Below, piece by piece: positions 1-17,993 of a DNA stretch of 35,467 bases (position 1 is its first letter; every line of letters begins with the position of its first letter). Under the pieces are notes generated by a model. It ran no database searches. It was not told the DNA's origin and saw nothing but the letters and a program-made list of their open reading frames with translations. Location of the stretch: contig CAIYFD010000250.1 of NCBI GenBank assembly GCA_903925425.1, positions 1 to 35,467 on the forward strand, written 5' to 3'. The position numbers and the translations under genes were made by a program. The DNA is from an uncultured Opitutia bacterium (lineage in GTDB: Bacteria > Verrucomicrobiota > Verrucomicrobiia > Opitutales > Opitutaceae).

Positions 1-72
1 CTCGCGCGATCATTCCGGCGAAATCCATTGTTCACGCCCCGCGGCGCCGCTGAACTGCCCTCCCCTTCGTCC

Positions 73-891
73 ATGCTTTCCGCCATCACCGCCTCCCTTG
101 TCCCCGAAGCTCGCGGCGGGCCGTTTGTCTTCTGGGACGGCCTTGAGGATGCCTGCGCCCAGGCGGAACAACTTGGCTTTGACGGGCTGGAGATCTTTCC
201 GCCTTCATCCGCGGCCCTCGCCATGCCCGCCGTCGGCGAACTGCTGGCCCGCCACGGGCTGCGCGCGGCCGCCGTCGGCACCGGCGGCGGCTGGGTGACG
301 CGCCGCCTGACCCTGACCCATTCCGACGCGAACGTCCGCCGCGAGGCGCGGGACTTTGTCCGTGCCATGATCGATGCGGCCGGCCAGCTCGGCGCCCCCG
401 TGATCATCGGTTCCATGCAGGGACGCTGGGAGGGCGACGTCACCCGCGATCAAGCGCTCGGCTGGCTGGGCGAGGCCTTGGTCGAGCTCGCCGCACACGC
501 TTCCCGGCACGGCGTGCCAGTGCTGCTTGAGCCGCTCAACCGCTATGAAACCAATCTCTGCCGCAGCCTCGGGGAGACCGCAGCCTGGTTGCGCACGCTG
601 CCCGCGGACAACATCCGCCTGCTCGCCGACCTGTTTCACCTGAGCATTGAGGAGTCCGATCTGGCGCAAGCGATCCACGCCGCCGGCCCGCTGCTCGGGC
701 ACGTGCATTTCGCCGACTCCAACCGGCTCGCGGTCGGGCTGGGGCACACAAACATGGCGCCGATCATCGCTGCGCTCCGTGCGACGGGTTACACCGGCTA
801 TCTTTCCGCCGAAATCCTGCCCCTGCCGGATCCGGCCAGCGCCGCCCGGCAGACCATGCAATCCTTCCGCCAATGGGTTCCGCGGTCCTGA
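73..891 (+). CDS. sugar phosphate isomerase/epimerase-like TIM-barrel protein
   Basis: The 272-residue product has the AP-endonuclease-2/xylose-isomerase-like TIM-barrel fold. Visible metal-site landmarks in order are a Glu in the LLEPLNRYE segment, Asp and His in LADLFHLS, His in HVHFADSNR and Glu in the C-terminal SAEILPLP strand. The family isomerises or epimerises sugars and keto-acids in the cytoplasm using a divalent metal; the exact substrate cannot be read here. I chose ATG at 73; a TTG at 28 lies in frame, but its extra residues do not look like barrel sequence. It is the first complete gene of a five-gene run, and the next gene starts 7 bases after its stop. A third-frame open stretch ending in TGA at 51-53 may be the tail of an upstream operon gene cut by the window edge, but it is too short to call. 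Confidence 0.85.
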   Translation: MLSAITASLVPEARGGPFVFWDGLEDACAQAEQLGFDGLEIFPPSSAALAMPAVGELLARHGLRAAAVGTGGGWVTRRLTLTHSDANVRREARDFVRAMIDAAGQLGAPVIIGSMQGRWEGDVTRDQALGWLGEALVELAAHASRHGVPVLLEPLNRYETNLCRSLGETAAWLRTLPADNIRLLADLFHLSIEESDLAQAIHAAGPLLGHVHFADSNRLAVGLGHTNMAPIIAALRATGYTGYLSAEILPLPDPASAARQTMQSFRQWVPRS

Positions 892-898
892 ATCCCCC

Positions 899-1345
899 AT
901 GCTCAAAACCTCGCTCACCCATCCTGAAATCCTCCGCGTTCTCGCCCGCGCCGGGCACCACGCCAAGGTCCTGATCGCCGACGGCAACTATCCCGTTTCG
1001 ACGAAGCGCGGCCCGAATGCCGAGGTCGTCAGCCTTAATCTCGCGCCCGGCGTCGTGACCGTCGCCCAGGTGCTGCGCGCGGTGCTTGGCGTCGTCCCGG
1101 TGGACCACGTCAACACCATGGGCATCCCGCCCGACGATCCCTATGCCCAGAGTGGCGAACCGCCGGTCTGGAACGAGTTCCGCACCGTAATCTCGGAATC
1201 GGGGGCGCGCCTCACCCTCGAGCCGGTCCTGAAATGGGACTTCTACAAGCATGTCGAAAGCGCGGATCACGTTCTCACCATTCAGACCGGTGATCAGGCG
1301 CTCTGGGCCAACGTGCTCCTCACCGTCGGCTGCCGGGTGTCTTGA
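899..1345 (+). CDS. fucU: RbsD/FucU family sugar mutarotase
   Basis: The 148-residue protein resembles RbsD/FucU mutarotases, which interconvert the alpha and beta anomers of L-fucose or ribose so the next enzyme receives the right form. The N-terminal block with HPEILRVLARAGHHAKVLIAD contains the conserved His and Asp region, and the C-terminal part ends in a QTGDQALWANVLLTVG-type strand. Length is close to E. coli FucU (140). The ATG at 899 is chosen because the family N-terminus MLKTSLTHPEIL begins there. It sits between an isomerase-like gene (7-base gap) and an aldo/keto reductase (3-base gap), so it is almost surely co-transcribed. A fucose role rather than ribose is inferred from the oxidative enzymes downstream. 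Confidence 0.88.
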   Translation: MLKTSLTHPEILRVLARAGHHAKVLIADGNYPVSTKRGPNAEVVSLNLAPGVVTVAQVLRAVLGVVPVDHVNTMGIPPDDPYAQSGEPPVWNEFRTVISESGARLTLEPVLKWDFYKHVESADHVLTIQTGDQALWANVLLTVGCRVS

Positions 1346-1348
1346 ACC

Positions 1349-2281
1349 ATGCAAACCCGTTCACTCGGCCAAACCGGCCTGCAGGTACCCCGCCTCAGTT
1401 TCGGCGCCAGCTCGCTCGGTGCGGAATTCCGCAGCGTCACCCTCGATGAGGTGCTCACCAGCGTGCGCACGGCGCTCGACTGCGGCCTGTCGCTGATCGA
1501 CACCTCGCCTTTCTATGGACGCGGCATGAGCGAAGTCCTGCTCGGCCTGGCCCTCAAGGGAGTGCCCCGCGATTCGTACCTGCTCTGCACCAAGCTCGGG
1601 CGCTATGACCTCACGCACTTCGATTTCTCCGCCAAACGCGTGGCGGAGAGCGTCGACGTGTCCCTGCACCGCCTCGGCACCGACCATCTCGACATCGTGC
1701 TCTGCCACGACATTGAGTTCGTGCCGCTCCCGCAGATCGTGGAGGAAACGCTCCCGGCGCTGCGGAAGATCCAGCAGTCCGGCAAGGTCCGGTTCATTGG
1801 CTTCAGCGGCTATCCCATGAAGATGTTCCGGAATCTCCTGGAGCGGACCTCGGTGGACTGCGCGCTCAGCTACAACCAATACACCCTGCAGAACACCCGC
1901 TTTGCCGACGAGCTTGTGCCGGTGCTAAAGTCCCGCGGCATCGGCGCAATGAATGCGGGCCCCTTCAGCGCGCGGCTGCTGACGAACGCTCCTTTGCCCG
2001 CGTGGCTGAAGGAACCGGAAGCCGTCAAGGCCGCCGCCCGCCAGGCCGCAGCGCTTTGCGCCAGCCGCGGCTCTGACATCGCCAAGCTCGCCCTGCAGTT
2101 CTCGATCGCGCACGATGACATAGCCACGACGGTCGCGGGCAGCGCCAACCCGCAGAACATCCGCCGCTGGGCGCAATGGGCGGAGGAACCGATCGACCGC
2201 GAACTGCTCGCCGAGGTGCAGGCCATCTTCGCTCCAGTAAAGAACCTCGGGCATGCCGAGGGGCTGCCGGAGAACAACTGA
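1349..2281 (+). CDS. aldo/keto reductase, likely L-fucose (aldose) 1-dehydrogenase
   Basis: The 310-residue product is an aldo/keto reductase of the D-threo-aldose 1-dehydrogenase / L-galactose dehydrogenase type. The N-terminus LGQTGLQVPRLSFGASSLG is the family opening. Catalytic tetrad positions are visible: Asp in LIDTSPFYGRG with its Tyr, Lys in LLCTKLGRY, and His in DIVLCHDIEF. The C-terminal SAN.QNIRRWAQWAEEP region is where NAD(P) is bound. Members of this group oxidise C1 of L-fucose or L-galactose to the lactone. The gene starts 3 bases after the mutarotase stop, and a lactonase-type amidohydrolase lies two genes on, which supports a mutarotation, oxidation and lactone-hydrolysis sequence. 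The substrate is inferred. Confidence 0.85.
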   Translation: MQTRSLGQTGLQVPRLSFGASSLGAEFRSVTLDEVLTSVRTALDCGLSLIDTSPFYGRGMSEVLLGLALKGVPRDSYLLCTKLGRYDLTHFDFSAKRVAESVDVSLHRLGTDHLDIVLCHDIEFVPLPQIVEETLPALRKIQQSGKVRFIGFSGYPMKMFRNLLERTSVDCALSYNQYTLQNTRFADELVPVLKSRGIGAMNAGPFSARLLTNAPLPAWLKEPEAVKAAARQAAALCASRGSDIAKLALQFSIAHDDIATTVAGSANPQNIRRWAQWAEEPIDRELLAEVQAIFAPVKNLGHAEGLPENN

Positions 2282-2291
2282 TTCGCCCGCC

Positions 2292-3320
2292 GTGAAAGCC
2301 ATCCAGCTCGAAAAACCCCAGTCGTTCCGCGTCATCGCGACCGCGGAGCCGCCGCCGCCCGGTCCCGGCGAGGCCCTCGTGCGGATCCATCGCGTCGGCA
2401 TCTGTGGGACCGACTACGGCGGCTACCTCGGCAAAATGCCGTTTTACTCCTACCCGCGCATCCCGGGGCACGAGCTCGGTGTCGAGGTCCTCGCGGTCGG
2501 AGCGGGCGTGACCGATGTCCGGCCGGGCGACCACTGCGCCGTTGAGCCCTACATCAATTGCCAACGCTGCTATGCGTGCCGGCGCGGGCTCAACCACTGC
2601 TGCGAACAGAGCCAGACGCTCGGCGTGATGTGCGACGGCGGGCTCTGTGAGCGCATGATCCTGCCCGCGCGCAAACTCCACGTCTCGCGCCAGCTCAGCT
2701 TCGAACAGCTCGCCCTCGTCGAGACCCTTGCCATCGGCTGCCATGCCGTGGATCGCGGCGGCGTCATCGCCGGCCTGAACGTCCTCGTGATCGGGGCCGG
2801 GCCGATCGGGCTGTCCGTGATCGAGTTTGTGAAGATCGCTGGGGCCCGCTGCCTCGTGCTCGACGTGAACGAGGCCCGCCTCGCCTTCTGCCGCGACCGG
2901 CTGCGGGTCGCAGCCACGATCCCAGCCCGCCGCGATGGCTCGGAGCTGAAGGCCCTCGAGACCCTGACGCAGGGCCAGCTCGCCGACGTCGTGATCGACG
3001 CAACCGGGAACAACCAGTCAATGAGTCAGGCCCTCGCCTACTGCGCGGCTGGCGGCCGCCTCGTGTACGTCGGCATCTCGCAGCAGGAAATCGCGTTTCC
3101 CCACGCCACGGTCTTCCACCGCCGCGAACTCACCCTGCTCGGTTCACGCAACGCGCCCTCCCGCGACTTCGCGCGCATCATCGCCCTGATCGAGACCGGC
3201 CGGATCGACACCGCGCCTTGGATCACGCACCGCGCGGGCTTCGACAACATGATCGCCGAATTCCCTTCCTGGCTCGAACCGCGCACCGGCGTGATCAAGG
3301 CCATCGTGGCACTGACATAA
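2292..3320 (+). CDS. zinc-dependent alcohol dehydrogenase (MDR family)
   Basis: The 342-residue medium-chain dehydrogenase has the catalytic zinc region GICGTD followed by PGHELG, and a structural-zinc Cys cluster (NCQRCYACRRGLNHCC). The Rossmann motif VIGAGPIGLSV comes next. I chose GTG at 2292, 10 bases after the previous stop, because VKAIQLEKPQ is the normal family N-terminus. An upstream in-frame ATG at 2253 would overlap the reductase gene. In non-phosphorylative L-fucose or L-rhamnose routes such enzymes oxidise a hydroxyl on an aldonate or 2-keto-3-deoxy-aldonate, so it may act after the missing dehydratase step. The substrate is not determined by the sequence. Confidence 0.87.
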   Translation: MKAIQLEKPQSFRVIATAEPPPPGPGEALVRIHRVGICGTDYGGYLGKMPFYSYPRIPGHELGVEVLAVGAGVTDVRPGDHCAVEPYINCQRCYACRRGLNHCCEQSQTLGVMCDGGLCERMILPARKLHVSRQLSFEQLALVETLAIGCHAVDRGGVIAGLNVLVIGAGPIGLSVIEFVKIAGARCLVLDVNEARLAFCRDRLRVAATIPARRDGSELKALETLTQGQLADVVIDATGNNQSMSQALAYCAAGGRLVYVGISQQEIAFPHATVFHRRELTLLGSRNAPSRDFARIIALIETGRIDTAPWITHRAGFDNMIAEFPSWLEPRTGVIKAIVALT

Positions 3321-3341
3321 ACCAAGTATTCGGACCTCCCC

Positions 3342-4172
3342 ACGAAACTCGATTCCCACCAGCACTTCTGGCGTTACGACGCCACGGACTACCCTTGGAT
3401 CGGAAAAGGCACGCCGCTGGAGCAGGACCGGCTGCCGGCCGACCTCGCGCCGCTGCTGGCCACCGCTGGAATCGAGGGATGCATCGCGGTGCAGGCCCGC
3501 CAATCCCTCGCCGAGTCGCGTTGGCTGCTCTCGCTCGCGGATGAGTCGCCCATCATCAAAGGCGTGGTCGGCTGGGTGGACCTTCGTTCAGGGGAGGTGG
3601 GGGCCCAGCTCAAGGAACTGTCCGCCCATCCGCGTTTCCGGGGCGTCCGGCATGTCGTGCAGGACGAGGCCAACGACCGTTTTATGCTCGGGGCCGATTT
3701 CCAGCGCGGCATCGCTCAGCTCGCCGACTTCGGACTCACCTACGATCTCCTGATCTACCCGCGGCAACTGCCCGCAGCGATCGAGCTCGTGCGGCGCTTC
3801 CCGCGCCAACGGTTCGTCCTCAATCACATCGCCAAACCCGCAATCCGCACCGGAGTGTTGTCACCGTGGCGCGAGCAGGTGCGCGAACTCGCGGCATCCC
3901 GGAATGTGCTCTGCAAGGTGTCCGGGATGGTGACTGAGGCCGACCCTGCAGTCTGGAAGCCGGCGGATTTCGAGCCGTTCCTGGACACGGTCTTTGCCGC
4001 GTTCGGTCCGGCACGCCTCATGTACGGCAGCGACTGGCCGGTGTCCCTGCTGGCAGCAACCTACGAGCGGCAGCACGCCCTGGTCGCCGACTATGTGAAC
4101 CGACACGCCCCCACCGCCACGGACAAGATCTTCGGCGACAACGCCGCGTGGTTCTACGGAGTCTCGCTCTAG
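3342..4172 (+). CDS. amidohydrolase family 2 lactonase (L-fuconolactonase-like), ACG start
   Basis: The 276-residue protein is an amidohydrolase of the fuconolactonase type, predicted to open a sugar lactone to the acid. The metal-binding HxH lies in KLDSHQHFWRYD at the very N-terminus. Further landmarks are KGVVGWVD, a His in FVLNHIAKP and the C-terminal metal Asp in MYGSDWPVS. No ATG, GTG, TTG or CTG occurs in frame between the TAA at 3318-3320 and the HxH motif. The codon where family members normally carry Met (M-K-L-D-x-H-x-H-F-W) is ACG at 3342. Starting at the first available in-frame GTG (3489) would delete the metal site. So it either uses a rare ACG start, is reached by readthrough from the same-frame dehydrogenase upstream, or has a mutated or misread start. 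No clear Shine-Dalgarno is visible. Confidence 0.82.
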   Translation, partial: TKLDSHQHFWRYDATDYPWIGKGTPLEQDRLPADLAPLLATAGIEGCIAVQARQSLAESRWLLSLADESPIIKGVVGWVDLRSGEVGAQLKELSAHPRFRGVRHVVQDEANDRFMLGADFQRGIAQLADFGLTYDLLIYPRQLPAAIELVRRFPRQRFVLNHIAKPAIRTGVLSPWREQVRELAASRNVLCKVSGMVTEADPAVWKPADFEPFLDTVFAAFGPARLMYGSDWPVSLLAATYERQHALVADYVNRHAPTATDKIFGDNAAWFYGVSL

Positions 4173-5095: not shown

Positions 5096-5151
5096 GAGGA
5101 CAGAGGACAGAGGACAGAGGACAGAGGACAGAGGACGGAAGACAGAGGGCA
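5096..5151. repeat. tandem heptanucleotide repeat, GAGGACA x 8
   Basis: Eight consecutive 7-base units start at 5096. The first five are perfect GAGGACA; the last three are degenerate (GAGGACG, GAAGACA, GAGGGCA). Because 7 is not a multiple of 3, every frame reads a repeated peptide (for example EDRGQRT on the plus strand), so open frames here are repeat artefacts. The array lies in the gap between msrA and the ABC permease gene. Confidence 0.93.
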
Positions 5152-5178
5152 GCCTCGGAAAAGCGATAGGCCGTTCTC

Positions 5179-17628: not shown

Positions 17629-17723
17629 CGGGGCATTGAAGGAAGTTTCCCGACGGCAAGGAACCAAAAAAAGTCTCGCGGATCCCCATCTTTCGGAAAA
17701 CGTCCCCAAACGCCGAAAAAATC

Positions 17724-17993
17724 ATGAAACGACTGCTTTGCGTGTGCCTGCTTGTCCTAACCGCCTTCTCCACCACGGGCTGTACGTTGCTGCGGAAGAA
17801 CCGCCCCTCCTCTCCGGCCAAGCCGAAAACGGTCACGGCCCTCGCGGCTGACACCGACGCCTCGTTCCGGGTGCTTTGGACCGCCCAACGGCAGAAGGAA
17901 CTGGTCACGCAAGGGCTTACGCCCGCTGCCGCGACCGCCAAGGCCGCCGCGGATTACACCGCCCAATACGGCTATACCAACCCGAAGCCCTGA
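17724..17993 (+). CDS. small lipoprotein
   Basis: The 89-residue product starts MKRLLCVCLLVLTAF and has a lipobox-like STTGC with the lipidated Cys at residue 20. The mature chain carries charged and helical sequence (WTAQRQKELVTQGLTPAAATAKAAADY) and has no recognised domain. It is probably anchored in the outer membrane. It is transcribed divergently from the Pro-rich membrane protein gene, with 95 bases between starts, and converges on the decarboxylase gene. Function unknown. Confidence 0.75.
   Translation: MKRLLCVCLLVLTAFSTTGCTLLRKNRPSSPAKPKTVTALAADTDASFRVLWTAQRQKELVTQGLTPAAATAKAAADYTAQYGYTNPKP

Follow-up and report, generated by a model that had tools for sequence, protein, structure and literature searches.

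The lactonase-like gene described here, from an uncultured Opitutia bacterium, has an ACG codon at the position where its relatives begin with a canonical start, which raises the question of whether this codon is a working start, the result of a recent change or a wrong base. The window, i.e., the whole stretch of 35,467 nucleotides that was analysed, is an entire contig of a genome of 2.93 Mb in 377 contigs, with 92.9% completeness. The features on which the argument rests are as follows.

28..891, + strand, sugar epimerase/isomerase-like TIM barrel, at the contig end (PF01261, E 5e-42)
899..1345, + strand, FucU/RbsD-like mutarotase-type protein (NF008761 and NF011949, both below cut-off)
1349..2281, + strand, aldo/keto reductase (PF00248, E 2.7e-48)
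2292..3320, + strand, zinc-dependent dehydrogenase with a probable GTG start (PF08240 and PF00107; NF007489 matches from residue 1, below cut-off)
3318..3320, + strand, TAA stop of the upstream dehydrogenase, in the lactonase frame
3321..3341, + strand, gap of 21 bases between the dehydrogenase TAA and the ACG, with the 3' end CCTCCCC (C at -1 and -2)
3342..3344, + strand, ACG at the Met position of the lactonase
3342..4172, + strand, coding frame of amidohydrolase-2 / L-fuconolactonase type, ACG through stop (PF04909, E 2.3e-44; NF052480; PDB 4dlf)
3357..3365, + strand, HxH metal motif, His-Gln-His (from the sequence and the PDB 4dlf alignment)
3489..3491, + strand, GTG, the first canonical start of the lactonase frame; a start there would drop HxH

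The lactonase-like protein is a member of PF04909 (Amidohydro_2), scoring 152.7 bits against a cut-off of 26.4 and covering positions 2-288 of the 289 in the profile. It also aligned with PDB 4dlf (E 5.8e-57), including the HxH and SDWPV stretches. The HxH motif is presumably a metal ligand, a role known from the amidohydrolase family. Against NF052480 (L-fucono-1,5-lactonase) the protein scored 273.3 bits, below the curated cut-off of 400. Judging from its gene content, the five-gene cluster may fairly be read as a sugar-acid lactonase operon; elsewhere in the genome, one MR_MLE_C (dehydratase-type) gene scored above cut-off. Downstream of the cluster, at window 5096-5152, there is an array of eight copies of the 7-base unit GAGGACA. 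A three-unit pattern of this repeat gave 17 partly overlapping matches (at most two mismatches) on several contigs of the genome, and the reversed control gave none.

Following the TAA at 3318-3320, the codons are ACC AAG TAT TCG GAC CTC CCC ACG AAA CTC GAT TCC CAC CAG CAC. The lactonase-like frame occupies window 3321-4172 and is open over 283 codons, with no ATG, GTG, TTG or CTG in frame between the TAA and the HxH motif at 3357-3365. The first canonical start, GTG 3489, comes 44 codons past the first His of HxH. These codons agree with an earlier note on this DNA, which had described an intact HxH preceded by none of the four start triplets and a dehydrogenase ending in the lactonase frame 21 bases before the ACG. 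RNA folding around the start is ordinary (z -0.02).

The earlier note had also taken ACG 3342 to be the normal Met position, and alignment with relatives places their start at this codon. The set of relatives comprises 131 loci, among which some redundancy between collections may remain; it is what was left of 145 loci after manual removal of 14, namely two entries for the window, duplicates, and fragments or neighbouring loci from the DNA search. A canonical start is present within 12 codons before HxH in 129 of the 131 relatives (122 ATG, 5 GTG and 2 TTG), and in 101 of the 129 it stands exactly five codons before the first His, as does the ACG in the window. ACG is found at the aligned codon in none of the 131. 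An earlier alignment of 110 loci, one of which was the window, had ATG at this codon in 83, GTG in 5 and TTG in 1, and nearly all of the others had a canonical start a few codons off. The exceptions are locus L079, with ATC at the Met position (lactonase start near 4001), and the distant locus L029 (32% identity), with GTG 16 codons before the His. In L079, an ATG 11 codons above the ATC, 16 codons before the His, may serve as the start instead.

The lactonase gene is absent from both same-genus genomes examined (75% and 98% complete), and a search for closer copies in 57 relatives, 252 family genomes and the DNA of 19 found none in the genus. The nearest copies, among the best loci of the 176 family genomes with a match, are 65-68% identical. 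Because the nearest copies are only this similar, we infer the age and direction of the codon change.

The lactonase gene is without sign of decay. In a comparison with 87 relatives of at least 50% identity, 38 of the 39 invariant columns and all 26 nearly invariant columns were kept. The broken column is a change of Asp to Asn beside a conserved His (residue 168 of P0001, window 3822-3824), and Asn was found in the same column in three other loci among 140 aligned loci, two of which are the window itself. One broken column is normal, because 11 of the 87 relatives likewise break one when left out in turn. The lactonase drifts no faster than its dehydrogenase neighbour, the difference in identity (dehydrogenase minus lactonase) being 0.076 for the window versus 0.076 (sd 0.037) in 300 other pairs. 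The codon score of the gene, 0.31 per codon versus a median of 0.37, is the 52nd from the bottom of 184 long frames. This leaves three readings, i.e., a recent change, a codon that still functions, or a wrong base.

Among the three explanations that the earlier note had put forward, the one with most support is a sequence error or a new mutation: none of the relatives examined shares the codon, the reading frame is unbroken, and the rate and the conserved residues are normal. Most likely, the ACG reflects either a commonplace start-codon change of recent date or an error in the consensus, and not a new mode of initiation. Our leading reading, held tentatively and a little short of an even call, is a change that is real and recent, or a minority allele incorporated in the assembled genome, leaving a start-weakened allele of an ordinary lactonase from a sugar-acid operon. 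The ancestral start would have been ATG (or GTG), and a single base change would suffice to turn ATG into the ACG of this genome. We infer low expression of such an allele, with the normal fMet initiator tRNA probably yielding little full-length protein from the ACG, far below the level from ATG. In general, codons of this kind initiate at a few percent of the ATG level or well below it. This reading is favoured because a canonical start lies near the motif in 129 of the 131 relatives and ACG is at the aligned codon in none, the frame is open, the conserved columns are kept and the drift is normal. The points against it are that no close copy allows the change to be dated, that a consensus error fits equally, and that an invariant Asp has become Asn.

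A consensus or assembly error would mean that the true codon at 3342 is a canonical start and that the contig is wrong by one base, which we regard as possible but rather unlikely. The 377 contigs and 92.9% completeness would be in keeping with a draft or metagenome assembly, and a single base accounts for everything, the rest of the gene being normal. However, the codon is 3.3 kb away from the end of a 35 kb contig, and no other lost 5' end holds up in the 225 frames surveyed in about 10% of the genome, so errors that break a start or a frame are uncommon. This survey used 14 stretches (loci L177-L190) and the window, together 287,206 bases, in which scoring by codon usage gave 232 gene-like frames, 225 of them with their 5' end inside the sample. 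Each of the 225 frames has some canonical start, and coding signal upstream of the first one was found in four. In the lactonase frame, the 56 codons ahead of GTG 3489 carry a coding signal of 18.4 log units, which extends to the 5' end of the frame. Three other candidates were rejected. The frame at C326 36311-36634 (108 codons, 16.5 log units) runs antisense to a gene for chaperonin-10 (E 9e-34) and is thus a shadow; the one at C326 8146-8871 encodes a response regulator with its domain from residue 21, fitting an ATG at residue 19; and the one at window 17640-17990 is short, matches nothing in Pfam and has a suitable ATG, after which a lipoprotein-like signal can be made out by eye. No second case of an ACG start was found among the 225 frames.

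It is unlikely, in our view, that the ACG is a working start, kept by selection for low lactonase in a genome that initiates without Shine-Dalgarno pairing. The starts in the genome sample are without clear Shine-Dalgarno excess. Shine-Dalgarno 4-mers were found before 14 of 199 starts versus 12 in one shuffle, and before 11 of 149 versus 8.9 shuffled in a second count; the start caller used is approximate, which would dilute any signal. Before 46 unambiguous ATG starts, there were 3 4-mers versus 2.05 and 3 5-mers versus 0.8. At the ACG site itself, GGA 3332-3334 is the sole stretch resembling the Shine-Dalgarno core. Some Verrucomicrobia are counted as Shine-Dalgarno-scarce in the excerpt of a survey (PMC10783764).

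A C at -1 precedes 76% of 142 ATG starts in the genome sample, versus 44% of in-frame internal ATGs and 41% of 111 out-of-frame upstream ATGs, and it precedes 85% of the 46 unambiguous ATG starts. No clear excess was seen for the 40 GTG starts (55% versus 51% inside genes) or the 15 TTG starts (33% versus 30%). When the lactonase start was anchored by homology, 35 of 43 family loci and 46 of 86 others had C at -1, counted with family lists typed by hand that left at least the family records L034 and L092 in the second group. With C at both -1 and -2, the ACG is supported as the old start site. For other genomes, self-training on 20-60 kb gave models that were too weak (for instance, 3 ATG starts in G002). 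With the G000 model, C at -1 was found in 68% of 28 starts in G002 and in 62-75% of 6 to 13 starts in G005, G006 and G022, of which G022 is uninformative, C also preceding 64% of its internal ATGs. None of seven samples outside the family showed a clear excess (6 to 15 starts each), and the papers listed by a literature search include none on C at -1 in the Verrucomicrobia group. C at -1 is a possible alternative start signal in this family. A recent change of the codon is further favoured because the ACG lies in the start context of the genome and no other flagged frame of the 225 survives.

The initiation machinery was also examined. The gene infC is present with its usual start (in-frame TTG ATG), and an altered IF3 was rejected on this ground, only start codons having been looked at. 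A tRNA scan gave 31 matches, of which 30 were scanned with ARAGORN (L152 is without an ARAGORN call). Three tRNA-Met(CAT) were found, one of them of initiator type, and none of the 30 scanned tRNA loci is an initiator-type tRNA reading ACG. The sole tRNA with an anticodon for ACG, tRNA-Thr(CGT), was rejected as a special initiator, since it lacks initiator features (by eye). General use of ACG in the genome is unsupported by the frame survey, and both infC and the initiator anticodon are ordinary. To our knowledge, RNA editing is unlikely in bacteria.

The initiator tRNA (L164 1501-1577) has the anticodon stem TCAGG/CCTGA, i.e., A29-U41 and not the usual G29-C41. A pattern of this tRNA left open at 29 and 41 had a match in 47 of the 57 relatives and in 156 of the 194 genomes from the phylum, the genome itself being counted in both sets, and 10 and 38 genomes, respectively, had no exact match. 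Among the matches listed, all had A with T at 29/41 and none had G with C. For Mycoplasma pneumoniae, the excerpt of PMC10568206 gives AU/GC/GU at this place. Because A29-U41 is phylum-wide, it cannot explain one ACG codon and is at most permissive. The presence of one initiator-type tRNA-Met and of none reading ACG is another reason to favour a recent change, together with the existence of natural weak-start mutants: in Listeria, rsbW start mutants with ATG changed to ATA or ATT lower translation and arise in nature and under selection, as the excerpt of PMC13068326 describes.

A maintained ACG start is consistent with the start context (C at -1 and -2), with the intact gene and its normal rate, and with the A29-U41 pair in place of G29-C41. 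Weak regulatory starts are known as well, such as the GTC start of Streptomyces sigR under IF3 control (excerpt of PMC5472188) and the AUU and AUA starts of S. aureus cvfC1 and ccpN (excerpt of PMC13009471). However, no relative among the 131 has the same triplet, the genome sample has no second ACG case, and relatives keep canonical lactonase starts although A29-U41 is found across the phylum. The S. aureus starts come with extended Shine-Dalgarno motifs, which are absent at the window site, and no ACG is used by any of the bacterial weak-start cases compared, as far as the excerpts describe them. We consider it quite unlikely that the ACG is maintained as a genuine start of low efficiency, in a lineage which, without Shine-Dalgarno pairing, would use C at -1 and the A29-U41 initiator and may tolerate a middle-base mismatch better than E. 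coli does.

The earlier note had also raised translational coupling as a route to a non-canonical start. This is possible, and re-initiation across the 21-base gap of the window would be conceivable. However, the case is weakened by the absence of a clear Shine-Dalgarno excess, by the 21-base gap and by the limits of re-initiation in an E. coli reporter, where it drops with distance to less than 3% at 40 bases and is lowered by extra IF3 (excerpt of PMC2268962). In relatives with a related dehydrogenase directly upstream, the gap to the lactonase ranges from -4 to 230 bases (39 relatives), and in L034 (same record as L111), which is 65% identical, the two genes overlap by four bases. Translation from GTG 3489 or another downstream codon would give a shortened protein and is very improbable: no canonical start precedes GTG 3489 in the frame, but the product would lose HxH, which is conserved in relatives, and the 18.4 log units of coding signal lie ahead of it. 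Hardly credible is a dehydrogenase-lactonase fusion by readthrough of the TAA, for which the frames agree and the intervening 21 bases are all sense codons: in 39 of 39 relatives with the adjacent dehydrogenase, its frame stops before or overlapping the lactonase start, which argues against the fusion that the earlier note had called formally possible, and a frame in common with the upstream gene is no special sign, because 8 of the 39 relatives have it too.

For now, the finding amounts to a single start-codon change in a single draft genome. Should the ACG prove to be in use, it would represent a naturally occurring start in bacteria that has a middle-base mismatch, in a lineage with a start signal that is not the textbook one; a literature search, judged from titles and abstract openings, found no natural bacterial ACG start. 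The C at -1 without clear Shine-Dalgarno excess and the A29-U41 initiator are more general than the ACG codon itself.

The protein resembles PF04909, PDB 4dlf and NF052480 in its full-length match, and it shares the aligned HxH and SDWPV stretches with 4dlf. As in L-fucono-1,5-lactonase systems, its operon also encodes a mutarotase-like protein, an aldo/keto reductase and a zinc dehydrogenase. However, its score is under the NF052480 cut-off, so that the substrate is only putative, and it differs from the L-fucono-1,5-lactonase family in the ACG at its start position and the Asn for Asp beside the conserved His. In having an intact gene with a start triplet other than ATG, GTG or TTG, it resembles infC, sigR, cvfC1, ccpN and rsbW as the excerpted sources present them. 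In contrast to the ACG of the window, the known weak-start genes are described there as backed by profiling, genetics or reporters. According to the same sources, infC, sigR, cvfC1 and ccpN are established or conserved cases, whereas the window is one sequence without conservation of the triplet. The nearest parallel to the ACG, going by the excerpted account, is provided by the newly arisen rsbW mutants of Listeria.
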